From a virus, in the IMG/VR virus record IMGVR_UViG_3300031707_000043, positions 1 to 44,360 of that record: DNA of 44,360 bases; one strand, written 5' to 3'. Position numbers and translations under genes: made by a program. Each line of letters starts with the position of its first letter. The first letter of the stretch is position 1. Of the stretch, positions 3,732 through 44,360 are shown one piece after another. A model generated the notes under the pieces. The model was not told where the DNA came from, made no database searches, and saw only the letters and a program-made list of their open reading frames with translations.

Positions 3732-3950
3732 ATGGTGAACGAAAAAACATTAAAAGAGTGCATTAAGACTTTGAACTTTAATATCAAAGTGGTGCAAAAT
3801 GAATATGGGATAAAAAGAGCAGTTGCAAAAAAACTTGTTATTGCAACATGTGATTACAATGTTTCAAGTATAAGGACTATGCTTGACATTATTGAGCACG
3901 AATTTAAATATGTGCCAGTATTTCTAAAGAAAAAAGTGGTGCCACAATGA
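3732..3950 (+). CDS. Small hypothetical protein
   Basis: 72 residues, basic, mostly helical (MVNEKTLKECIKTLNF...). Not recognised. The start is fixed by AAGGTGA five bases upstream. The stop overlaps the next gene's ATG (ATGA). It heads the second early operon, just upstream of the Toprim protein, and the size and position suit a small DNA-binding or accessory factor, but no motif proves this. Confidence 0.7.
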   Translation: MVNEKTLKECIKTLNFNIKVVQNEYGIKRAVAKKLVIATCDYNVSSIRTMLDIIEHEFKYVPVFLKKKVVPQ

Positions 3951-4984
3951 AATTCGACCTCAATCAAACAGCAACGCCTGAAAGACTAAAAGAATTTGCT
4001 GTCAAGCTACAAGAACTTTCTGATAAAATTGGTTTCAAAGTATCGGCTCGAGGCTGGTGCTATCAGTTGGAAGTCGAAAGGCTTATCAACAAGGATGAGT
4101 TTGACAAGGTTGAGAATTGGATAAATGCCTGCAGAAAAAAGGGTATATTGCCAATTGATTTCACTGCTGAAGAGGAAGGACGACAATTCAGTGGTGTCGA
4201 ATATAAATCATGGGGTACGCCTGTACAGACTATGGAATCATATTTAAAAGCCGTTCTTGAGGCTGAAGATTACTACACACCAGATTGGTGGGAAAATGAA
4301 GAATACTACATACAAATGCTTGTCGAAAAAATAGACCTTAAAACATTATTTGAGCCAGTATGCAGGAGATTTCATATACCAATAGCAACAAGCAAAGGTT
4401 GGTCTAGCATGTTACAAAGAGCAGTTTATGCCAAGAGATTTAAACAAGCTGAAGACAAGGGCTTGAAAGTAGTGTTGCTATATTGTGGTGACCATGACCC
4501 AGACGGCTTGAGGATTTCTGATTTTATCATGAAAAACCTTGAAGACATTAAGGATATTACATGGGAAGATGGCACTGAGGGTTATGACCCAGCAGGGCTT
4601 AAAATTGTCAGGTTTGGCTTAAATTCCGACTTTATTGAAGAGCATCACATAACATGGATTGATAACTTGATAACAGGCTCTGGTAAGAATTTAGCATCAG
4701 CAAATCACAAAAACAACGCCTTGAAATACGTCAAAGACTACATCAAGACCTACGGCGTTAAAAAGTGCGAGGCAAATGCAATTGTACCAATGCCAAAGAT
4801 AGCAAGAGAGCTTGTTGAAGAGGCTATTAAAGAGTTTGTTGGTGAAGATGCTGAAGACCGATTTCAAGAAAAGCGAGATGCCGTCAAAGAAGTTCTTGAC
4901 GAGTTCAGAGAACGAACAGGCATCAATGAGAGTGTCAAAGTAGCTCTAAAAATAATCAAAAAGGAGAATGACAAAGATGACTAA
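3947..4984 (+). CDS. Spo11/Topo VI subunit A-like Toprim protein (orphan)
   Basis: 345 residues. A winged-helix-like N-terminal half carries SARGWCYQLE around residue 33-42, and a Toprim domain carries CGDHDPDGLRI near 182-192, the acidic DxD metal motif preceded by VVLLY. This layout is that of Topo VI A/Spo11-related proteins of phages and plasmids, which bind and may nick DNA. The conserved RxxYY catalytic block of true Topo VI A is not clearly present; Tyr40 is the nearest candidate. No GHKL-ATPase B subunit is encoded. The C-terminal 80 residues are charged and helical. It overlaps both neighbours by a few bases. Confidence 0.75.
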   Translation: MKFDLNQTATPERLKEFAVKLQELSDKIGFKVSARGWCYQLEVERLINKDEFDKVENWINACRKKGILPIDFTAEEEGRQFSGVEYKSWGTPVQTMESYLKAVLEAEDYYTPDWWENEEYYIQMLVEKIDLKTLFEPVCRRFHIPIATSKGWSSMLQRAVYAKRFKQAEDKGLKVVLLYCGDHDPDGLRISDFIMKNLEDIKDITWEDGTEGYDPAGLKIVRFGLNSDFIEEHHITWIDNLITGSGKNLASANHKNNALKYVKDYIKTYGVKKCEANAIVPMPKIARELVEEAIKEFVGEDAEDRFQEKRDAVKEVLDEFRERTGINESVKVALKIIKKENDKDD

Positions 4985-6511: not shown

Positions 6512-7213
6512 ATGAAAATACAAAAATCGAAATTCTTAAAATTATTGACAAAGATACACTGTAATGGGTTAATACACGAGGGCATCATAAACTTTGAGCC
6601 TAAGCAAATCAGCTGCCTTGTCAAAGAAACAAGCAATATTGGTATGGCATCAGTGAAAGCACCAACATCACTGGCAACAGAATATGAAGCATTTGGTGAA
6701 ATAGGCGTCACTAACTTTGGCGACCTTATCAAGCTGGTATCAAGATTCAACGAGGCAATCGAGATAACAAAGCATGAAAACCTGTTGGTCTTGAAAGATG
6801 CTAAAAAAGAGCTAGAGCTTGTGTTGCCAGACCCAGAGTATTTGAGGGGAGAAATCAGTATGGACAAGATTATGACAGTGGTATTCCCTGTTGATATAGA
6901 CGTTGAAAGCTCTGTATTTAAAGACAGTGTTGTCAATGCTGAAATCTTAAAGTGTGGCACAATGTTTATCAACATAAATAACAATATTCTAGCAGTAACC
7001 ACTGGTGACGACAACAAGTTTACTGAAAAATTGTCAGTTGTAGCACCAAATCAGAAAAGCAAGTATGGTGACCTTTTGAAACATATTGTTGTCGGCTGCC
7101 CTGAGAGAATACACATTAAATTTGGACAAGATTTGCCAATCATGGTAAGTTATGTCGATGAGGAAGTCAGTGCGTTGTATGTTGTTGCACCATTGGCAAT
7201 AACGGAGGAATAA
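6512..7213 (+). CDS. PCNA-like DNA sliding clamp
   Basis: 233 residues, close to the usual PCNA/T4 gp45 length. The C-terminal part (IKFGQDLPIMVSY...YVVAPLA) matches the end of the second clamp domain, where PCNA has L-x-F-G-x-D-x-P and ends Y-h-h-AP. The two-fold beta pattern fits a trimeric ring. It tethers the viral PolB and other partners to DNA. The start ATG follows GATGAGGTAAC. It is followed at once by a zinc-finger gene, the loader ATPase and a gp62-like subunit, a coherent clamp-loading operon. Confidence 0.85.
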   Translation: MKIQKSKFLKLLTKIHCNGLIHEGIINFEPKQISCLVKETSNIGMASVKAPTSLATEYEAFGEIGVTNFGDLIKLVSRFNEAIEITKHENLLVLKDAKKELELVLPDPEYLRGEISMDKIMTVVFPVDIDVESSVFKDSVVNAEILKCGTMFININNNILAVTTGDDNKFTEKLSVVAPNQKSKYGDLLKHIVVGCPERIHIKFGQDLPIMVSYVDEEVSALYVVAPLAITEE

Positions 7214-7214
7214 A

Positions 7215-7382
7215 ATGAACTGCGAAACTTGCAAGGATGAGAAACAAGTACAATGTGATAATTGTAGTGGTGTTGGTGAGGAAGAGTGCACACAATGTGG
7301 CACGATGGTTGAGTGCTCAAATTGTGATGGCACAGGGCAGGTTGATTGCCCAGACTGTGGTGATATTGATGTCATTGACTAA
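7215..7382 (+). CDS. DnaJ-type cysteine-rich zinc-finger mini-protein
   Basis: 55 residues starting MNCETCKDEKQ with about five CxxC pairs: CETC, CDNCSGVG, CTQC, CSNCDGTG, CPDC. CxxCxGxG is the signature of the DnaJ/HSP40 zinc domain, which binds unfolded chains, but the J-domain is absent. GGAGGAATAAA precedes the ATG, and the stop is 14 nt inside the loader gene. Small CxxCxGxG proteins are common in phages. A role as a chaperone for clamp-loader assembly is possible but unproven. Confidence 0.85.
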   Translation: MNCETCKDEKQVQCDNCSGVGEEECTQCGTMVECSNCDGTGQVDCPDCGDIDVID

Positions 7383-8262
7383 GGAATCATGGATTGAAAA
7401 ATATAGACCTAAGATGTTTGATGAATACGTTGGTCAAGATACAGAAGTCATCAGAAAGATGCTTAAAACACCAAGAGAAATGCCACATTTACTCTTTGTT
7501 GGCAAGACACCAGGAACAGGTAAAACAAGCCTCGCAAAGATTATTGTCAAAGAGCTTGGAGCAGACAGCATAACAATTAATTCATCGAAAGACCGAACAC
7601 TTGAGGTCATTAGAGAAAAGATTGTCAAGTTCAGCAGCTCTATGTCTAGCAAAAGAGGTATACCAAGAGTGGTCATCATGGATGAAATTGACGGCATGCC
7701 CAAGATGTCGCAAGAGAGCCTAAGAAATGTCATGGAGGAATTCAGTGCTGGGTGTAAGTTTATACTTACTGGGAACAACATAGCTAAAATTCACACCGCA
7801 ATCCAATCTAGGTGCGTAAAGATTGATTTTAAATCTCCTCCCAAGGACTTAATTGCCCAAAGGTTGAAGTTTGTTATAACGCAGGAAAAATTGGTAATAG
7901 AGCAAACTGCCATAGATATGATTATTGCAAACAACTATCCATCTATGCGTAACATGATTGGTGAGTTACAACTCTTGTCACTAAGACACAAAGAGATAAA
8001 AGCAGAGCATATTGTCAAGGCTCAGAACAAGGAGCAACAAATATGGGCACTAATTAAAGCCAAAAAAGTACACGATGTGAGAAAACTTGTCATTGAAGAG
8101 GGCTTGAATGTTGAAGAGCTTGTCAATGCTCTTTTCGTCATTGAAGAGCACAGCCCAGCAGTGATTAAGGTCTTTGCTCTATATGCATACAGGCTTGCAG
8201 TTGGTGCTGACCCAGAAATAACATTTGCAGGATTGGCAACAGAACTTGGTGAGGTGTTGTGA
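7369..8262 (+). CDS. RFC small-subunit/T4 gp44-like clamp loader ATPase
   Basis: 297 residues. SWIEKYRPKMFDEYVGQ opens the protein as in RFC and gp44. Walker A GKTPGTGKTS is near 44-53, Walker B IMDEID near 103-108, sensor 1 LTGNN near 132, and arginine finger SRC near 147. A helical collar region follows. It loads the neighbouring PCNA-like ring on DNA. ATG 7369 is chosen because GGTGAT lies 5-6 nt upstream and because everything upstream is another frame of the zinc-finger gene; the open frame before it lacks family residues. Confidence 0.92.
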   Translation: MSLTKESWIEKYRPKMFDEYVGQDTEVIRKMLKTPREMPHLLFVGKTPGTGKTSLAKIIVKELGADSITINSSKDRTLEVIREKIVKFSSSMSSKRGIPRVVIMDEIDGMPKMSQESLRNVMEEFSAGCKFILTGNNIAKIHTAIQSRCVKIDFKSPPKDLIAQRLKFVITQEKLVIEQTAIDMIIANNYPSMRNMIGELQLLSLRHKEIKAEHIVKAQNKEQQIWALIKAKKVHDVRKLVIEEGLNVEELVNALFVIEEHSPAVIKVFALYAYRLAVGADPEITFAGLATELGEVL

Positions 8263-8393: not shown

Positions 8394-8834
8394 ATGAGCT
8401 TTGAAGCATTGAACACGTTGTTCTATAAAGATGGCAAAGAGGTTGAGGATTTTCAACCATTCCTTGTCAATAGGTTTGTCAGCTTTATAGACTTACCTGT
8501 GGCAGAGTATTTGAATGCGTATACATTCCAACTTGACACAGACGTTCAGTTTAAATTGTTTGATAGTGTCATAAAAAAGGGCAAAGTGCCATTTTATCGG
8601 TACATCAAAAAGGTTGAACCAAAAGAACTCGAGCTGCAGTTTTTGTACGATAACATCAGAAAGTATTACAATATGTCTGACAAGGATTTCGCAGCCAATG
8701 TCAAGATATATGAAGAACTATTTAAAGACAAGGGAGTGATGGAACAATATTTCAGGTTTTTTGGTGTAGACCGAAAACGATTTGATGAATATGGTTTCAC
8801 ATTTAATAAGATAAAAAAGCAAACTTGGTGGTAA
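8394..8834 (+). CDS. Phage clamp loader A subunit (T4 gp62-like)
   Basis: 146 residues. FQPFLVNRFVSFIDLPVAEY, then LDTDVQFKLFDSVIKKGKVP and RYIKK, follows the phage clamp-loader A family (PFIVNRxxSYF...ANxMN...LDxxxQYDFLxxxIRKRKRFxKW). In T4, gp62 joins four gp44 subunits to form the loader. Here it follows the gp44/RFC-like gene, as in T4. It ends in TWW; these codons also form the GGTGG ribosome binding site of the next gene. GGTGAT lies 4 nt before its ATG. Confidence 0.75.
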   Translation: MSFEALNTLFYKDGKEVEDFQPFLVNRFVSFIDLPVAEYLNAYTFQLDTDVQFKLFDSVIKKGKVPFYRYIKKVEPKELELQFLYDNIRKYYNMSDKDFAANVKIYEELFKDKGVMEQYFRFFGVDRKRFDEYGFTFNKIKKQTWW

Positions 8835-8836
8835 AT

Positions 8837-9319
8837 ATGAATGAATTTTTTGGCAATACATCGATAGATTTTAAACAAAAGCAATATGAAAAAATAAAGG
8901 CTCAACTGATAGCAACAGGCACAGACCCAAAGGTTGCAGAGTACAAAGCAAAGGAAAAAATATTTACTCCTGACAAGCTCGAAAAAATCTACATCAAGAC
9001 CGAAGTTGAGAACAACAATGTTACATTCTATTTCAAGAACAAAGATGACCTTGAGCTTGTCTGTAAACACTTCAAATTGAGTGGTTATAACGGCTACAAC
9101 ACTGACAAGGTTGAGTTGTTAGTAAGTCTGTTGAAGTCTTATGAAAAAGGCACATTGACAGGCAGCTCTAAGGTTATCAACGCATTTGAGGGTGTACACC
9201 TTGAATCTAGAGATGATGTTGTTGATGAGCCTGAAACAGAGCCTGTTGAAGACTATGCCGAAATAGAGCCTGTGCCAATACAAAAACCTGTGATGCCGTC
9301 TGATGGGAAGTGGTTTTAA
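8837..9319 (+). CDS. Hypothetical protein with acidic tail and terminal WF
   Basis: 160 residues from ATG 8837, preceded by GGTGG at 8827-8831. The N-terminus is Lys/Gln-rich and helical. The centre VTFYFKNKDDLELVCKHFKLSG looks like a small alpha/beta unit. The last 45 residues are acidic and Pro-rich (DEPETEPVEDYAEIEP) and end SDGKWF. A disordered acidic tail with a terminal aromatic pair could dock on the viral clamp. Not recognised; position before the radical SAM gene hints at a link to DNA modification or repair. Confidence 0.6.
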   Translation: MNEFFGNTSIDFKQKQYEKIKAQLIATGTDPKVAEYKAKEKIFTPDKLEKIYIKTEVENNNVTFYFKNKDDLELVCKHFKLSGYNGYNTDKVELLVSLLKSYEKGTLTGSSKVINAFEGVHLESRDDVVDEPETEPVEDYAEIEPVPIQKPVMPSDGKWF

Positions 9320-10722
9320 TGGCAAATATAACAGATGTGGCATTACAATTTGTCAACAATAACAAGAGCATGGAGTGTGACAAGGATTTTTACAGCTCAC
9401 CAAGGATATCAAGTGAGTTTCCAGATTGCGCATTGCCGTTGACGTATGACGGCTACTCATACTGCAGTTTCGGATGTTTATATTGCTTCAGTTATAACTT
9501 TAAGACCAACAACCCTAGTCACGCAGGCAATCTTAAATTGAAGTCAACTAATGTCAAGCACGTGATAGATTTGTTTGAGGGTAAATCACCAAACAATCCA
9601 TATTACAAGCATTTCTTGTCAAAGAGATTTGTATTCCACATTGGTGGTATGGCTGACATATATTGCAACTTTGAAAAGAAAAACAAGAAACAACTGCCAC
9701 TGATTCAGTATTTAGCTGACAAGAAATATCCAACAAAAATATCAACAAAGGGAGATATTATGTCATTCCCTGAGCATAAGCAAATTTACGAGAAATTTGC
9801 TCACAACAAAAACTTCGCATTTCAATACAGCATCATAACCAGTGATGAAGAAATAGCAAAACAACTAGAGATTGGAGTGCCAACAGTAGCCAAGAGATTT
9901 GAAAACCTTAAATGGTTGGCAGGTCTTGGTTATTATACTGCATTAAGATTGCGACCATTCATTATTGGTATTAGTGACAAAAACTTGCAACAAACGTTGC
10001 AAGCAGCAAAGGACAGTGGTATAAAAGCCGTATCAATGGAGTTCTTTGCACAGGATATGCGATGCAATGAGGGTATGGAAATCAGGTATGGTGAGATTAA
10101 TCGCCTGACAGGTTTCAATATGACAAAGTTCTTGAGAGCAACGTCACCAATGGAACGTGGTACATACAGACGTAGCAACAGGGATGTCAAAGAGGAGTAT
10201 GTCAAGCAAGTTTATATTTTTTGTAAAAAGAACAACATACTGTTTAGTTGCTCTGACCCAGATTTTAAAGAGCTTAATGGCTCGAGCTGTTGTTGTGGTC
10301 TGCCAGACTTAAAAGACAATACATACAATCCAGAGTTGTCAAACTTCAGCAAAAACCAACTAACACACAAACTAAGATTGATGGGTGAGGTATACAGAAA
10401 AACTGGTGAAAAGCAACAAGTACGATTCAGTGAGATGTTTGATGACCCAGATTTCTTGGGCTTTTGGGATGACAATAAACTGATGAGTGATTCAGTTTTA
10501 AAGAGCCAGTGGCAAGCAGGTAAGGTACAAACACACAGCTACAAAAAGAGCTATCGTGATTTGTGGAACAACATAGAGAGCCCAAAAAATCCATTCAATT
10601 ATTTCCACGGAAAACTTTTTCCGTTGAAAAAAGATGAAAACGGAGACATTGTGTATGAATACAGACCTACTGGTTATGAAGAGAGATGGAAAAAAGAGGG
10701 TGTTTTTGATGATAAACAATAA
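9319..10722 (+). CDS. Radical SAM enzyme, spore-photoproduct-lyase-like (COG1533 type)
   Basis: 467 residues. YSYCSFGCLYCFSYNF holds the [4Fe-4S]-binding CxxxCxxC (Cys49, Cys53, Cys56). KISTKGD near 143 and the LAGLGYYTALRLRPFIIGI stretch near 200-220 match the SplB/DNA-repair-photolyase family order. A CCC cluster near 324 could bind a second cluster. ATG 9319 overlaps the previous stop (TAATG). In SPL the radical repairs a thymine dimer; radical SAM enzymes also act in thymidine hypermodification of phage DNA. Followed by kinase, amidotransferase and transferase genes, a role in DNA-base modification is more likely than repair (inference). Confidence 0.8.
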   Translation: MANITDVALQFVNNNKSMECDKDFYSSPRISSEFPDCALPLTYDGYSYCSFGCLYCFSYNFKTNNPSHAGNLKLKSTNVKHVIDLFEGKSPNNPYYKHFLSKRFVFHIGGMADIYCNFEKKNKKQLPLIQYLADKKYPTKISTKGDIMSFPEHKQIYEKFAHNKNFAFQYSIITSDEEIAKQLEIGVPTVAKRFENLKWLAGLGYYTALRLRPFIIGISDKNLQQTLQAAKDSGIKAVSMEFFAQDMRCNEGMEIRYGEINRLTGFNMTKFLRATSPMERGTYRRSNRDVKEEYVKQVYIFCKKNNILFSCSDPDFKELNGSSCCCGLPDLKDNTYNPELSNFSKNQLTHKLRLMGEVYRKTGEKQQVRFSEMFDDPDFLGFWDDNKLMSDSVLKSQWQAGKVQTHSYKKSYRDLWNNIESPKNPFNYFHGKLFPLKKDENGDIVYEYRPTGYEERWKKEGVFDDKQ

Positions 10723-11368
10723 AGGCTCAAATAATCCATTTTTTGGCAAACATCATACCAAAGAAGTGAGAGAAATAATATCAAAACGCTTTAAGGGTAA
10801 ACATTTGAGTGAGCAACATAAACGACATATCAGTGCAGGCAATAGGGGCAATTTAAAATTGATGCAATCACTCAAAGGTCAAAGACATTCAATAGCAACA
10901 GAATTTAAAAAAGGTGATAAATTGTCTGAAGAGCATAAGAAAAAATTATTGGCTTGTCATTTGGGTAAACATATATCAGAACGACATAAACAAATTTTGA
11001 AAAATGCAAGATTGAAAACAATTTTACCTGTTAAGGATACAAAGATTGAGATGAAAATTCAAACTTTTTTGCAACAATCGAACATCATATTTTTAACCCA
11101 TAGATATATGCGTATACCTCATGCATACCAATGTGATATATTTATACCATCTTTAAATATGGTTATTGAATGTGATGGAGATTATTGGCATGGAAATAAT
11201 CAAATGTTCTCAGACGACGAATTGACTGAAAAAATTATAAACCATAGACGTATAGACGATTTAAGAACTATTGAATTGACAAATAAAGGATACAAAGTAA
11301 TGAGGTTGTGGGAACATGATATAAAATGTATGACATTAGAACAATTCAAAGAGGGGGTATTTAAATGA
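10709..11368 (+). CDS. Homing endonuclease 1 (NUMOD3 + Vsr-like nuclease)
   Basis: 219 residues. NNPFFGKHHTKEVREIISK and several H-x-x-x-h repeats up to about 115 are NUMOD3 DNA-binding units. The C-terminal half holds VIECDGDYWHG near 152-162 and KVMRLWEHDI, the Vsr/EDxHD nuclease fold seen in free-standing phage homing enzymes. Its ATG overlaps the radical SAM stop by 14 nt and its end overlaps the kinase ATG by ATGA, so it entered without breaking either gene. An earlier in-frame ATG at 10634 would encode no family residues. It is a paralogue of the gene at 12449. Confidence 0.85.
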   Translation: MINNKGSNNPFFGKHHTKEVREIISKRFKGKHLSEQHKRHISAGNRGNLKLMQSLKGQRHSIATEFKKGDKLSEEHKKKLLACHLGKHISERHKQILKNARLKTILPVKDTKIEMKIQTFLQQSNIIFLTHRYMRIPHAYQCDIFIPSLNMVIECDGDYWHGNNQMFSDDELTEKIINHRRIDDLRTIELTNKGYKVMRLWEHDIKCMTLEQFKEGVFK

Positions 11369-11859
11369 AACTCAAAGTATATCTTGGTACCAGTGGTGCA
11401 GGTAAGACAACTCTCATTGAGAAAACGTATGACCTCACTGATATGAAGGATGTGACAATAAGTAACATGAGATGTTGTTCAGGTGGTCACAATCTGTTTA
11501 TTGGGTGGTATAAAATCGCTGCTAGATGCCGTGGGTGCGATACACTTAGCATGACAATAATTGATGAGCTTATCAAATTCCTTGACAAGCAGATTAAAGA
11601 CAATGTCTTTGAAACCATTGTCATGGACGGCGACAGAGTGAACAACATGAAGATGTTGTTGTTCCTAGAGCAACATAAAGACAAAGTTGAGATTATTTTT
11701 GTCAATACGAGCCTCGATACCATATACAAACGCAGACCTGATTGCAATAAAGTTTTTATACAGACAACACAGACCAAAACACACAACATGATATCAGAGT
11801 ACAAAAAGCGAGGCTTTAAAGTGACAACAATAGATGAAGAAAAACAGGGGTGGTTTTAA
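11365..11859 (+). CDS. P-loop kinase resembling phage 5-hmdU DNA kinase
   Basis: 164 residues. Walker A GTSGAGKTT at 8-16, then GWYKIAARCRGCDTLSM at about 47-63. The G-x-Y...C-x-GCD-x-h-S block is characteristic of the phage 5-hydroxymethyl-dU DNA kinase family. A Walker-B-like IVMDGD lies near 85-90. In thymidine-hypermodifying phages this kinase phosphorylates 5-hmdU in DNA to activate it for amino acid transfer. The next gene but two is an amino acid:DNA transferase-like protein, which supports the pathway. It ends KQGWF, with the TGG TTT TAA codons forming the next gene's leader. Family recognised from memory of motifs. Confidence 0.7.
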   Translation: MKLKVYLGTSGAGKTTLIEKTYDLTDMKDVTISNMRCCSGGHNLFIGWYKIAARCRGCDTLSMTIIDELIKFLDKQIKDNVFETIVMDGDRVNNMKMLLFLEQHKDKVEIIFVNTSLDTIYKRRPDCNKVFIQTTQTKTHNMISEYKKRGFKVTTIDEEKQGWF

Positions 11860-12452
11860 TGTGTGGAATACTTGGTGTTGTCATGAAACAATATGACCCA
11901 AAGATTTTGCACGTTATTAATCAACTCAAAATCAGAGGCACTCATGCATATGGTATAGCATATGTTGAATCAAATGAAATCAAAAGATGCAAATCAAATT
12001 GTATAGAATTTGTATGCGCACAAATAGATAGATTAAAATTGACAACATTTATTTTCCACAACAGATACTCAACCAGTGGTGACTACAAAGATGACAATAA
12101 TAATCAACCAATCATTGTTGGTGATACAGCTATGGTGTTTAATGGCGTCATCTCGATGAAAACCAAGCCTGAGATGGAGCAAGAGTTTGACATCAAGATG
12201 TCAACTGATAATGACGGCGAAATAATGCTGCTGAAACCAAATGAATTTTATAACCCCTCTGCCTCATTCGCAGGTGTGTTCCTTACCAAATCTAAGTGCT
12301 ACGGAGTGCGAAATAATAAACGTCCCATGTATTTATACCAAGATGAAAATCTTCAAATCCTAGTGTCTACAATTGATACTCTCAAAAGAGCTGGTTTTGA
12401 TTGCACTAAGGCTCGAATTGTGAAACCCTTTGAATTGGTGGTGTTAAAATGA
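11859..12452 (+). CDS. Class II glutamine amidotransferase (N-terminal nucleophile)
   Basis: 197 residues. MCGILGVV places the nucleophile Cys at position 2, exposed after Met removal. HNRYSTSG near 67-74 and NGVIS near 94 are the GATase II glutamine-binding and oxyanion motifs; TDNDGE near 115-120 matches the usual TDSxxE. No synthetase domain is attached, so it must supply ammonia from glutamine to a partner. ATG 11859 (not the GTG at 11850) is required for Cys2. It overlaps both neighbours. In this cluster it could amidate or aminate a DNA base adduct (inference). Confidence 0.85.
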   Translation: MCGILGVVMKQYDPKILHVINQLKIRGTHAYGIAYVESNEIKRCKSNCIEFVCAQIDRLKLTTFIFHNRYSTSGDYKDDNNNQPIIVGDTAMVFNGVISMKTKPEMEQEFDIKMSTDNDGEIMLLKPNEFYNPSASFAGVFLTKSKCYGVRNNKRPMYLYQDENLQILVSTIDTLKRAGFDCTKARIVKPFELVVLK

Positions 12453-13069
12453 CAATGAAAGACAAAAAACACTCTGAGTATACTAGGAGATTAATGTCAT
12501 TTCAACGAAAAGGTATACCACACTCCGAACAACATAACATCAACATATCAAAATCAAAGATTGGAAAAAAAATGCCAGAGAGTGTCAAAATAGCTTTATT
12601 GAAAGCCAATAAAGGAAAAATAGTATCAACAAAAACTCGAATGAAATTGTCAATAAGTCATATGCATAAAACTCCTTGGAATAAAGGATTAACAAATATT
12701 TTTTCTCATGAGGCACTTAATAAAATATCTGAGACATCAAAAAAATTAAGAAAAACCCAAGTGTTACCTGTCAAGGATACATCAATTGAAATAAAAATAC
12801 AAACATTTTTGCAGCAATTAAATATTTCTTTTCTTCCTCATAAACACATAAATATCAAACATTGTTTTCAATGTGATGTTTTTATAGAGCCTAATATCGT
12901 CATTGAATGTGATGGGGATTATTGGCATAATTATCCAAATGGTAATGACAAAGATGCTGTAAGAACAAAAGAGATGCAACAAATTGGTTTAAAAGTTATC
13001 AGATTATGGGAAAGAGATATAAATGCAATGAGTTTGAACGATTTTGTAATGGTGTTGAAAAATGGATAA
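12449..13069 (+). CDS. Homing endonuclease 2 (NUMOD3 + Vsr-like nuclease)
   Basis: 206 residues, a paralogue of the enzyme at 10709. Shared blocks are LPVKDT-x-IE-x-KIQTFLQQ, FQCDVFI (cf. YQCDIFI), IECDGDYWH near 151-159 and KVIRLWERDI. The N-terminal 110 residues carry NUMOD3-like repeats (HSEQHNINISKSKIGKKM). It sits between the amidotransferase and the transferase with ATGA-type overlap upstream and 8 nt overlap downstream. The pair brackets the kinase and amidotransferase genes. Confidence 0.85.
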   Translation: MTMKDKKHSEYTRRLMSFQRKGIPHSEQHNINISKSKIGKKMPESVKIALLKANKGKIVSTKTRMKLSISHMHKTPWNKGLTNIFSHEALNKISETSKKLRKTQVLPVKDTSIEIKIQTFLQQLNISFLPHKHINIKHCFQCDVFIEPNIVIECDGDYWHNYPNGNDKDAVRTKEMQQIGLKVIRLWERDINAMSLNDFVMVLKNG

Positions 13070-14075
13070 ACGTCAACAATTTAAAGATTTTTATAAAATG
13101 TTCAGGGAAAGTGGAGATTGTGACACTGCCTATCCGTGTATGAACTACATAGCAGATAGATTAGAACTCAACAAAGAACAGCGTTATTGGTTAACATTAT
13201 TGTATGGTTGTACATACTCAGCTCCGACAGCATACTACATTTTAAACGAGTTTCCAGACTTTGAGAATGTTGATGAAAACAGACTTCAACGATGGTGGAA
13301 CGACAACAAAGAAAAACTTTTATTTCAGACTGATAGAGCCAAAGTCAAGAACTTTGACAAGTTTGTTGCCATATTCAAATCATACAAGGCTCTGATAGGC
13401 AACAACACCCAAGAGGTTGTTTTTAAAAATATAGTTGGTTATGATAAAACTGCAAGATACAAAAATGTTTACAATTTTGCAATCAACATCTATTACTTTG
13501 GCAGATTCAGTTTATTTAACTATCTCGAGGCTTTGCATGAACTAACAGGTCTTGACATAGAGCCTGATACGTTAGATTTTAAAGAGGCTCACAGCTGCCG
13601 AGATGGTATGCTGTATGTGCTTGACATATACGAACTCAATACCGAGCAAGTTGTTGAAAGAGTTGGGTATGCACATCTTCAACAAGAGTTACTATCACTC
13701 CGAAGTGAACTTTCAACGGAATACCCTGACCTTGACGTCAACTTTTGGAACATAGAAACCTGCCTGTGTGCCTTTAAGAAGTTGTTTTGGGGTAAACGAT
13801 ACTTAGGATACTACATTGATAGGCAACAGGATGAAATCAGCATAATGCAACATAACGTGCCAGAGGGTGTTGATTGGTCTATCCTGTGGGATTTCCGTCA
13901 AGAGTTCTTTAATCCATATTGGCTTGGCGAGAACAATAAATGGTGTGGTGTGAGAAAAATGAGGCTGACACAATTCAAAACCACAGGCAGCCATTTCACG
14001 TATTTTGAAACTGCACCAACACTAAGATTTAAATATAAGGTCGTTTTTACTACAATAGGGGATGTATATGAATAA
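13062..14075 (+). CDS. Amino acid:DNA transferase-like protein (thymidine hypermodification family)
   Basis: 337 residues. NKEQRYWLTLLYGCTYSAPT, then AYYILNEFPDFENVD and RLQRWW (about 36-78), YFGRFSLFNYLEALHELTG (about 145-163), SCRDGM and WNIETCLCAFKKLFWGKRY (about 228-246) match the conserved helical phage family described as amino acid:DNA transferases, which attach glycine or serine to activated 5-hmdU in DNA. Length is typical. Its gene follows a kinase of the same pathway (one homing gene removed), so the pair supports each other. Family named from memory; a profile search would settle it. It overlaps the polymerase start by 8 nt. Confidence 0.65.
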   Translation: MDKRQQFKDFYKMFRESGDCDTAYPCMNYIADRLELNKEQRYWLTLLYGCTYSAPTAYYILNEFPDFENVDENRLQRWWNDNKEKLLFQTDRAKVKNFDKFVAIFKSYKALIGNNTQEVVFKNIVGYDKTARYKNVYNFAINIYYFGRFSLFNYLEALHELTGLDIEPDTLDFKEAHSCRDGMLYVLDIYELNTEQVVERVGYAHLQQELLSLRSELSTEYPDLDVNFWNIETCLCAFKKLFWGKRYLGYYIDRQQDEISIMQHNVPEGVDWSILWDFRQEFFNPYWLGENNKWCGVRKMRLTQFKTTGSHFTYFETAPTLRFKYKVVFTTIGDVYE

Positions 14076-15819
14076 AGACGTTTTGATATATGATACTGAA
14101 AATAGAGTGCTCAACAATAAAATTAGTTCCAAGACTGATATGTTGAGAGTGTTCGGTGCATATAGCTTAAAGTATGACAAGTATTTCTGTTTCTTTGACC
14201 CAGAGAATATGATGGATATTCAAGAATTGTTTGCTGACCATAAAATACTTGTTGGTTTTAACAACAAAGATTATGACAACGAAATTCTAAAAAGGTGTGG
14301 TGTAGACTTTGAATACAAAATCATGATTGACTTACTTCAAATAATTAATGTCAAGGAATGGCGTGGTAAAGGGCGTGGCTCGATTATTATTGTTGATGAT
14401 AAAAATATGAAAGACACACTTGATAGTTATTCAATGTCAAGCGTTGCAAAATGGTTGAACTTGTCAGAGCTAAAAGATGACACATTTGATTATGACGTGT
14501 TACAAAAACCAATATTCAGCGATGAGGATAAAAAATACATATGGAATTACTTACAGCAAGACCTCAAGACCACAAAAGCTATTTTTGAATTCCTTGACAA
14601 TTACTTCTTAGGTTTAAAGCCGTTCTTGTCGCTGAAAGACCAAGCGAAATTTGAGTACGTGAGAACAACAACTGCAGTTTATGCATATAAGGTTATTTGT
14701 AACAAGACAGGTATGGTTGAGGAATACGCACAGGGTGTTGAGCAAGAGTTTCCTGGTGCATATGTTTCAGAGCCTAGTGGCGAGGAATACAAAGACGATT
14801 GTTACTGTCTGGATTTCTCGAGCCTATACCCTCACATCTTCATTCAGTGTAATTTATTCTCACCGAGTGACACTGATAGTTGGTTTGGTGATGGCAAATT
14901 CTTTGTCAGTGGTAGATACAATAAACTTCAACAGGGTAAGATTGAACAGGTTTTACAGAGCCTTTACAATGAAAGGCTTGTCTATAAAGCTGCAAAAGAC
15001 CCACGTGAGTATGGTCTGAAAATCTTCATGAACTCATTGTATGGCTGTGTCGGCAATCCAGTGTTTAAAAACGTACATAATTATGTTGCTGCTGAAGATT
15101 GTACACAGCTTGGTCAGCAATGGATTAAATTGGCAAGAAAACGATTTGAAGAGGCAGGATACATATTTATCTATACTGACACTGATAGCGTTTATTTGAA
15201 AGACCCATTTGCTGATGAGAAAAAACTTTTGGACGTCAAGGATTTAATAATCAAAGAGATTAAAGAGAGTGTGCCATTCCCATCAAAGACTTTTGACATG
15301 AGTATTGATGCTAGAATCAAATACATCAAGTTCTTCAAAGGAGACAACGGCAAATTCAAAAAGAAAAACTATTTGTATGTCACTAATTCAGGTAAACTTA
15401 AAATCAAAGGTTTGCAGATTATCAAGAGTAATACATCTAAATTGTCAAAGAATATATTTGACAAGCACATTAAACCTATCATCATAAACGAATTGAGGTG
15501 TGAGCTTGACAAGTGTGTAATATCAAAGATTGTCAATGACGAGATTAAAAAAGACCTAAGCCTTGTTGCTATTCCGTACAAAGTGAAGACAGTAGACAAC
15601 TATAAAAATCAGACCTCTATACAATGGCAAATCAGCAATGCATATGGTGCTGGTAAACATCTATTGATTAAAAACAAAAAGTTTGGTGTTGGTAAGGATG
15701 CCAAATATTGTAAGATTGATGAGTATAAATCTGACATACGTGACCTTGTTCTTGACAATGTATTTGACACAGAGCTTGGTGATTTTATAGGCGAAACAAA
15801 GACAAAGAAGTGGTTTTAA
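14068..15819 (+). CDS. polB: DNA polymerase family B (compact)
   Basis: 583 residues, shorter than cellular archaeal PolB (about 780). Exonuclease motifs: LIYDTEN (Asp9, Glu11), GFNNKDYDNE near 70-79, YLQQDLKTT near 164. Polymerase motifs: A DFSSLYP near 249, B KIFMNSLYG near 318, C YTDTDS near 370; then KKNY near 434. All catalytic residues are present, so it should polymerise and proofread. It ends ETKTKKWF, a PIP-box-like tail that might bind the viral PCNA. ATG 14068 is preferred over 14062 because AGGGG lies 7 nt upstream. Confidence 0.93.
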   Translation: MNKDVLIYDTENRVLNNKISSKTDMLRVFGAYSLKYDKYFCFFDPENMMDIQELFADHKILVGFNNKDYDNEILKRCGVDFEYKIMIDLLQIINVKEWRGKGRGSIIIVDDKNMKDTLDSYSMSSVAKWLNLSELKDDTFDYDVLQKPIFSDEDKKYIWNYLQQDLKTTKAIFEFLDNYFLGLKPFLSLKDQAKFEYVRTTTAVYAYKVICNKTGMVEEYAQGVEQEFPGAYVSEPSGEEYKDDCYCLDFSSLYPHIFIQCNLFSPSDTDSWFGDGKFFVSGRYNKLQQGKIEQVLQSLYNERLVYKAAKDPREYGLKIFMNSLYGCVGNPVFKNVHNYVAAEDCTQLGQQWIKLARKRFEEAGYIFIYTDTDSVYLKDPFADEKKLLDVKDLIIKEIKESVPFPSKTFDMSIDARIKYIKFFKGDNGKFKKKNYLYVTNSGKLKIKGLQIIKSNTSKLSKNIFDKHIKPIIINELRCELDKCVISKIVNDEIKKDLSLVAIPYKVKTVDNYKNQTSIQWQISNAYGAGKHLLIKNKKFGVGKDAKYCKIDEYKSDIRDLVLDNVFDTELGDFIGETKTKKWF

Positions 15820-36826: not shown

Positions 36827-37852
36827 TTATCTTACTAATTTTAATGGTGATACCATTTGTACCACTGGTTTTTCTGTTGGCATTGCTGTTTCAACAATTG
36901 CCTTCATAACTGGCTTTGCCAGTTCTGCTTTCATAGTTGCCATTTCTGCTCTTATTGTTTCCATCTCAGCATCATGTTTCTCTTTCATAGCTTTCACTAT
37001 TGCTTGAACGTCAACAACTTCTGCAATTGGCTCTGCTTTTACTTCTGCTTTTATTTCAGTTTCCATTGCTTTTACCTCTGCACTCTCGTTGCATTTTGTT
37101 TCTGGCTCTTTTTTGTGAGCCTTATCAATATGAGCATCAAGAGCATCCTTGTCAGCAAATTCTTTATCACATTCTTTACATTTCATCTTGTTTTCCTCCA
37201 TATCCTTTACTTCAGGCGATTTTGGTGTATCAACAGGATTAGTTAATGATTGTGTTGGGGCATCGACAGGATTGGTTAATTCAGAGCCTAGAGGGTGAAT
37301 TGCCTTGACTTCCTCCATGTCCATCCATGCTGCTGCAGATTTCATACTGACAGCGAATGTTGCATTTGGATTAACAGGAGAGCCTGTCAATGTTATGTTG
37401 ACTAGATTTAGATGCTTGATGATACTACCAGCTTTTTGTGTTGGATAAAAAGCAACACTGAAAGCCTTTAAAAAGCCGTCTTTAATGCTGCCCCAAAGTT
37501 CTGTGAAACTTCTTAGATTGTTATTGATTTTAGCCTTGACCCAAACACCTCGAGGTCTAATTTCAGAATGAATTACTTTTGCCACTGGTATCTTCATGTT
37601 CTTTGGTTTTGACAACATTTTACCATGCTCGTCATACCACTCTTCATGTTCGATGTCCATGGTGATGTTTTCGTTTTGAATTTGATTGTGTATGTCTTGC
37701 TGTGCTGACATTTCGAGAATTTCGCCAGATTTGTCTTCATCAATAGTAGATGCAAAGCCCTCGATGAAGTATTGTCTTTCGCCTTTTAAATTGACCTCTG
37801 ACCATAGAAAACCATCATTAATACTGTAACTGAAAACGTTTTTATTTGTCAT
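36827..37852 (-). CDS. Prohead protease fused to scaffold with a C2H2 zinc finger
   Basis: 341 residues. The N-terminal domain (about 1-170) is an HK97/S78-type prohead protease: FIEGFAS, a catalytic-His candidate in DIEHEEW (His69), Ser in LKAFSVAFYP (Ser132), and the family-end motif VNITLTGSPVNPNA. A linker with two LTNPVD(A/T)P copies follows. Then a C2H2 finger (Cys225, Cys228, His241, His246) and an Ala/Glu/Lys coiled coil (about 255-330), the scaffold part. The ATG lies about 30 nt from the late promoter TATA, so it may be leaderless. The zinc finger in a scaffold is unusual. Confidence 0.8.
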   Translation of the reverse strand: MTNKNVFSYSINDGFLWSEVNLKGERQYFIEGFASTIDEDKSGEILEMSAQQDIHNQIQNENITMDIEHEEWYDEHGKMLSKPKNMKIPVAKVIHSEIRPRGVWVKAKINNNLRSFTELWGSIKDGFLKAFSVAFYPTQKAGSIIKHLNLVNITLTGSPVNPNATFAVSMKSAAAWMDMEEVKAIHPLGSELTNPVDAPTQSLTNPVDTPKSPEVKDMEENKMKCKECDKEFADKDALDAHIDKAHKKEPETKCNESAEVKAMETEIKAEVKAEPIAEVVDVQAIVKAMKEKHDAEMETIRAEMATMKAELAKPVMKAIVETAMPTEKPVVQMVSPLKLVR

Positions 37853-44188: not shown

Positions 44189-44347
44189 CTATTTGAAATG
44201 AAATATCTTTATTAAATTATCAATTATGTCAACAATACCTGCTATAATGACAATGATTATACTGATGATACCACAAAGTACAATTAAACCAAGTACAAAC
44301 CAAAAAGGGCTTGTCAGTATGATTGTAAACCACATCAACCAATTCAT
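44189..44347 (-). CDS. Small hydrophobic membrane protein (complete copy)
   Basis: 52 residues. MNWLMWFTIILTSPFWFVLG, then a very hydrophobic LIVLCGIISIIIVIIAGIVD and IIDNLIKIFHFK: two membrane spans. Its ATG overlaps the TGA of the small-terminase candidate (in the circular map). It may be a holin, pinholin or packaging-related membrane protein; no family is recognised. Confidence 0.75.
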   Translation of the reverse strand: MNWLMWFTIILTSPFWFVLGLIVLCGIISIIIVIIAGIVDIIDNLIKIFHFK

Positions 44348-44360
44348 TTCGGTGACACCT
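44203..44360. repeat. Terminal direct repeat, right copy
   Basis: Matches bases 1-158 with a single difference at 44329. See the left copy for interpretation. Confidence 0.95.

Follow-up and report, generated by a model that had tools for sequence, protein, structure and literature searches.

How does a virus that carries the enzymes for elaborating a chemical handle on its thymines obtain the handle itself, when no known enzyme for making it can be recognised? The question is raised by a gene cassette in the IMG/VR virus record IMGVR_UViG_3300031707_000043 (44,360 bases, analysed over its full length and called the window hereafter), in which an earlier note, made from the sequence alone, had seen four genes of DNA hypermodification leading into a family B DNA polymerase. 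All four were found in their places on the plus strand: a spore photoproduct lyase (SPL)-like radical S-adenosylmethionine (SAM) protein, here named rSAM2 (9319-10722), a P-loop kinase of the 5-hydroxymethyldeoxyuridine (5-hmdU) DNA kinase kind (11365-11859), a stand-alone class II glutaminase (GAT, 11859-12452) and an amino acid:DNA transferase (AADT, 13062-14075), with the polymerase gene (PolB, 14062-15819, PF00136 2.6e-15, plus strand) directly downstream. The answer that we consider probable is that the cassette hypermodifies thymidine after replication by a pathway whose first step is new: rSAM2 would make the hydroxymethyl handle on the thymines of the DNA with no need for oxygen. The cassette probably decorates the thymines of the virus DNA in this way, evading host defences.

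To our knowledge, the established routes to base hydroxymethylation are a change of the nucleotide pool by ThyA-type enzymes and the O2-dependent oxidation of DNA by TET/JBP enzymes. Profile searches of the window record detected no ThyA-like protein (PF00303), no ThyX and no TET/JBP dioxygenase (PF12851), M6-like phage records being positive for PF00303 in the same kind of search and TET-bearing records serving as positive control in the TET/JBP search. The absence of a recognisable ThyA-like hydroxymethylase, already remarked upon from the sequence, was thereby confirmed. Flavin-dependent ThyX was also considered as the source of the hydroxymethyl group and discarded, since the record contains none (six of 31 rSAM2 records do). 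The conclusion that another source must provide the hydroxymethyl group did not fare so well. Its probable supplier is the cassette itself, since rSAM2 stands in for the ThyA-like or TET/JBP enzyme in cassettes whose downstream genes are the same.

This replacement pattern was observed in a set of viral loci that carry AADT or a TAGT glycosyltransferase, 137 of them after the removal of near-duplicates. A ThyA-like gene was present in 61 of them, rSAM2 in 58, TET/JBP in 6 and none of the three in 13, while a single locus held two of these starting enzymes, against 28.8 expected under random placement. In this count, the rSAM2 profile had to compete with a profile of the gp053-type radical SAM proteins, named after gp053 of Pseudomonas phage M6; a table made without the latter profile was discarded, seven of its eight apparent rSAM2 plus ThyA loci having turned out to carry a radical SAM protein of the M6 type. 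The rSAM2 family as such was collected by alignment-based scans, in which 34 viral loci were retained at first and 80 later, the two sets overlapping in part. Over whole records, 50 contigs with AADT or kinase gave rSAM2 in 21 cases, ThyA in 15 and TET/JBP in 6, with no overlaps; likewise, no overlap was found in a TAGT-seeded scan (ThyA 66, rSAM2 8, TET 4, none 2), which was built on a 4-sequence alignment, an 11-sequence alignment having no block conserved enough. Moreover, six records of AADT cassettes with neither ThyA nor rSAM2 carried a TET/JBP dioxygenase beside a ParB_N gene.

The nearest relatives of the window AADT (51%) and GAT (42%) belong to two loci, L044 and L045, in which TET/JBP is present and rSAM2 absent. 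In a quick AADT tree, with some open forks and long branches, these TET rows are nested within the rows of rSAM2 loci, and one row from such a locus (L115) lies among the M6-type AADTs, a topology that implies three or more exchanges of the starting enzyme. Thus, ThyA-like, rSAM2 and TET/JBP proteins appear to be interchangeable starters, the proposed likeness of function between rSAM2 and TET/JBP being argued from replacement and not from homology. Phage TET/JBP systems share with rSAM2 both position and partners (ParB_N, AADT, kinase and GAT, or TAGT), but they use a 2-oxoglutarate-, Fe(II)- and O2-dependent enzyme with no homology to the radical SAM protein.

The partners of rSAM2 were counted in 122 loci, not deduplicated: TAGT in 58, kinase in 33, AADT in 21, ParB_N in 84, SPASM radical SAM proteins in 31, B12 radical SAM proteins in 8, GAT in 6, ThyA in 1 and HMUDK_hel in none. 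In no rSAM2 locus does TAGT stand together with AADT or kinase, and since glycosylation and the kinase/AADT branch both need a hydroxyl, this distribution was counted in favour of rSAM2 making a hydroxymethyl handle. As regards the level of action, ParB_N occurs in 43 of 58 rSAM2 loci and in 6/6 TET loci, and in none of 61 ThyA loci. Because this gene is common to rSAM2 and TET loci and never found in ThyA loci, rSAM2 appears to sort with the enzyme acting on DNA and not with ThyA, which works at the dUMP level. HMUDK_hel (PF18723) shows the opposite distribution, being present in 56 of 61 ThyA loci and in none of the rSAM2 or TET loci; the window and 31 records searched likewise gave no match to it.

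Two observations on these partners may be added. The family PF18723, described as the helical domain of 5-hmdU DNA kinase, accompanies the ThyA-like gene even in TAGT loci that have no kinase but is missing from rSAM2 and TET loci in which a kinase does occur, so that its name may be misleading. Furthermore, SPASM or B12-binding radical SAM proteins stand beside TAGT in several rSAM2 loci (L013, L015, L040, L014, L025 and others), which suggests further radical tailoring of glycosylated bases.

The protein itself carries a radical SAM core that matches PF04055 with an E-value of 5e-5, below Pfam's own cut-off, and that is supported by the family alignment and by the structural model. The CxxxCxxC cysteines proposed for it were recovered at 49/53/56 when counted from the ATG at 9319, corresponding to 52/56/59 in the reading from the GTG at 9310, where the open reading frame begins. 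An AlphaFold2 model (mean pLDDT 87.5) was compared with the PDB, and spore photoproduct lyase entries occupied the six top places, with TM scores up to 0.60 on the target and about 13% identity. The SplB assignment thus finds support at the level of fold, modest as the TM scores are. At the level of sequence rSAM2 falls outside the SPL family: the NCBIfam SplB and PA0069/Rv2578c families match it partially, over the radical SAM core (56 bits against a cut-off of 360), and a PDB profile search with the sequence gave no match, which leaves fold comparison as the link to SPL. It also differs from SplB in its C-terminal part, where a CC pair is invariant, and in its base-modification gene context. 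In its own reaction SPL deals with a methylene radical of a thymine in DNA, and this chemistry fits an activation of the thymine methyl group by rSAM2.

The same likeness could be read in another way, namely that rSAM2 is a photoproduct lyase-like DNA repair enzyme tied to replication, only the kinase, GAT and AADT forming a modification pathway. SPL is indeed the nearest fold, and rSAM2 lies right behind clamp-loader genes in many loci; a repair role would, however, explain neither why rSAM2 is mutually exclusive with ThyA and TET/JBP nor why it is repeatedly linked to kinase, AADT or TAGT, and it is considered very improbable.

The hydroxymethyl nature of the handle is a separate matter. In the rSAM2 family three further cysteines are invariant, C40, C328 and C329 (the last two being the C-terminal CC pair), and these might bind a second cluster or serve as hydrogen donor. 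They suggest an unusual mechanism and, together with the versatility of radical SAM chemistry, they leave room for a different handle, for instance one arising when thymine undergoes another C-C or C-N functionalisation or when cytosine is hydroxymethylated, with relatives of the kinase, AADT and TAGT adapted to it; in the part of PMC11404850 dealing with them, the phage TET enzymes studied so far act on cytosine. Nevertheless, the same AADT/GAT/kinase module is found with TET/JBP, and relatives of AADT and TAGT are found with ThyA hydroxymethylases; this sharing across both kinds of system points to a common hydroxymethyl handle, while the SPL-like fold points to thymine. A different handle is therefore regarded as unlikely.

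The kinase and AADT, together with a radical SAM protein, are already known as a combination from phage M6, which makes 5-(2-aminoethyl)deoxyuridine (5-NedU), Salmonella phage ViI making 5-(2-aminoethoxy)methyldeoxyuridine (5-NeOmdU). M6 is the best-known relative, and its cassette, assigned by annotation and by similarity to Pfam-scanned Ab18 proteins, comprises AADT (gp051), a pyridoxal phosphate (PLP) enzyme (gp052), a radical SAM protein annotated 'DNA repair photolyase' (gp053), the kinase (gp054), HMUDK_hel (gp055) and a ThyA-like hydroxymethylase (gp058). The window shares with M6 and ViI the kinase and AADT homologues and a presumed 5-hmdU intermediate, and with M6 a radical SAM gene nearby. 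It differs from them in the lack of a ThyA-like hydroxymethylase and of HMUDK_hel, in the family of its radical SAM protein and in its stand-alone GAT; neither the PLP enzyme of M6 nor a flavin enzyme of the Ab18 type was recognised in it.

By analogy with M6, rSAM2 might be a late tailoring isomerase working on the amino acid adduct, with 5-hmdU coming from a host enzyme or from a viral hydroxymethylase that escaped detection. The M6 protein gp053 belongs to the same broad SplB-like group and shares its cassette with a kinase and AADT, and radical SAM isomerases are reportedly mentioned in the abstract of Lee's 2021 study. Yet rSAM2 and a gp053-type protein are both present in four loci (L035, L115, L121 and L140), and because of this coexistence the two are taken to be separate families with different steps; the window protein scores to the rSAM2 family and not to the gp053 type. 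Moreover, rSAM2 also accompanies TAGT glycosyltransferases, where no amino acid adduct is present, and it excludes ThyA and TET/JBP, while gp053-type proteins are found alike with ThyA, TET and rSAM2. A late isomerase thus seems improbable, and rSAM2 is preferred as the enzyme that makes the handle. In one locus the gp053-type gene itself (L083, 4663-7684) is split by an apparent intein and GIY-YIG-type insertions.

The downstream enzymes conform to what had been proposed for them, and profile searches, which could have placed the kinase and the protein at 13062 in unrelated families, assigned both to the expected ones. The kinase matches no Pfam family above its cut-off but matches PHROG_800 (7.5e-9), and its closest phage relatives are Ab18 and PaMx11 proteins annotated 'terminase small subunit' that adjoin PF18723 and a ThyA-like gene. 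A profile-profile comparison (hhalign) with M6 gp054-type kinases gave 98.7% probability (E 4e-16), and the Walker A, GxY..GxD and (D/E)GDR motifs are retained, in agreement with its proposed identity as a 5-hmdU-DNA-kinase-like protein. AADT is securely recognised by PF18724 (2.2e-21, 77 bits against a cut-off of 26). Alignments were used to collect relatives, single-protein scans with AADT or kinase having given none that were usable. A variant of the kinase, fused to a dual-specificity phosphatase domain, occurs in L022 (12783-14962) near AADT and a myo-inositol-1-phosphate synthase, possibly an inositol-based version of the pathway.

The glutaminase has GATase_6 and PurF/GlmS-like glutaminase domains and, when read from the ATG at 11859, the free Cys2 nucleophile that had been described. 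It is a real partner in the pathway, because it adjoins AADT in five other rSAM2 loci (L107, L120, L123, L136 and L159) and also in the TET/JBP loci L044/L045; its role is the least certain step. GAT, AADT and kinase form a recurrent module in other viruses, and this, together with the family placement of kinase and AADT, gives good support to the hypermodification reading. The glutaminase domain is homologous to that of the GAT/amidoligase/gamma-glutamylcyclotransferase clusters of PaP3-like and Laroye-like phages, but the window protein is single-domain and goes with AADT. An amidoligase-type role, as in those phages, was rejected, no amidoligase or gamma-glutamylcyclotransferase family hit being found in the cassette.

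In the mechanism proposed, a 5'-deoxyadenosyl radical generated from SAM at the [4Fe-4S] cluster of rSAM2 would activate the 5-methyl of thymine residues within DNA, giving 5-hmdU or an equivalent hydroxylated handle with no O2 and with the dNTP pool unaltered. The kinase would then phosphorylate the handle, AADT would exchange the activated phosphate for an amino acid or amine, and the glutaminase might provide ammonia or edit the adduct. The gene families, their repeated linkage, the replacement pattern and the SPL-like predicted fold are observations, whereas thymine in DNA as substrate, 5-hmdU as product, the sequence of steps and the part played by the glutaminase are inferred. Several points weigh against this scheme. 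Many contigs are fragments, homologous loci are non-independent observations, and 13 AADT/TAGT loci have none of the three starters; about 21 rSAM2 loci, some very short, lack a recognised elaboration gene, and one locus (L012) carries rSAM2 plus a ThyA-like gene. Furthermore, the likeness to the SPL fold is modest (about 13% identity, TM 0.4-0.6), and rSAM2 might install a handle that is not a hydroxyl, or might act on cytosine instead of thymine.

In the broader view, to which we give an even chance, rSAM2 would be a hitherto unrecognised class of DNA-modifying enzyme, a radical-SAM, O2-independent counterpart of TET/JBP that converts T to 5-hydroxymethyluracil in polymerised DNA, occurs widely among viruses of anaerobes and supplies either glycosylation or kinase/amino-acid transfer. 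A passage of a 2025 review (PMC12783734) gives the hydroxyl of 5-hydroxymethyl-dU/-dC as the usual handle in phage hypermodification, with carboxymethyl as a new alternative, and within that passage radical SAM enzymes are not mentioned. The literature covered on radical SAM enzymes and phage DNA hypermodification or thymine hydroxylation, to which Iyer 2013 and Lee 2021 did not belong, contained no description of the rSAM2 family, and the novelty of its role is provisional. If correct, a radical SAM route would explain thymine hypermodification by viruses of anaerobes, integrated ones included, and would add new chemistry to DNA modification and a possible O2-free tool for writing 5-hmdU. The prediction is testable with about 100 viral contigs bearing rSAM2 and with the culturable Selenomonas ruminantium S137.

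The named genome contigs with rSAM2 are bacterial (among them Clostridia and Clostridiaceae metagenome-assembled genomes (MAGs), Oscillospiraceae, S. ruminantium S137, a Patescibacteria MAG and a Spirochaetaceae MAG), and several are 59-423 kb long, which suggests prophages. Most of these lineages are anaerobic, which fits an O2-independent replacement for TET/JBP, small as the sample is. An AADT profile gave no match in ten rSAM2-bearing bacterial genomes, a set that had no positive control. As for the host of the virus studied here, the archaeal affiliation put forward in the earlier note is not established. The best match of the clamp loader is an archaeal RFC, yet it is paired with a T4 gp62-like subunit, and that of TerL is the haloarchaeal HGTV-1; against these stand the gp62-like subunit, the topoisomerase and the named rSAM2 genomes, which are bacterial. 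The topoisomerase-like protein (3947-4984) is 56% identical to proteins of Chryseobacterium and Cellulophaga (Flavobacteriia) phages, by far the closest match in the genome, and likely reflects a recent transfer or hints at the host.

The record has a direct terminal repeat of 158 bp (1-158 and 44203-44360, near-identical with about one mismatch) and is therefore probably a complete genome, circularly permuted or terminally redundant. Upstream of the cassette, on the plus strand, lies a replication module with a sliding clamp (6512-7213), an RFC/gp44-like clamp loader (7237-8262) and the gp62-like subunit (8394-8834). It is followed by X164 (8825-9319, plus strand, 164 aa), which precedes rSAM2 in loci of the clamp-loader type; a homologue lies directly 5' of rSAM2 in 16 loci of the first locus set, and Pfam and NCBIfam scans of X164 gave no match. 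The four modification genes do run together before PolB, as had been described, but two plus-strand homing endonuclease genes within the run had been overlooked: one of the NUMOD3 plus DUF559/Vsr-like type (10709-11368, in a reading frame opening at 10634; PF07460 3.5e-7, PF04480 2.8e-5) and one of the DUF559 type (12449-13069, PF04480 1.4e-5). They are 39% identical, stand outside the modification pathway and lie on either side of the kinase-GAT pair, which gives the impression that modification genes are preferentially targeted.

A PADLOC search gave zero hits. Three gene junctions of the window (9312, 11852 and 15812) have TGGTTTTAATG in common, with the stop codon overlapping the next ATG (TAATG), and the proteins upstream of these junctions end in WF; a coupled translation start signal is possible. 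Finally, a prohead-protease-like protein encoded on the minus strand (36827-37852) shows a weak C2H2 zinc-finger match.

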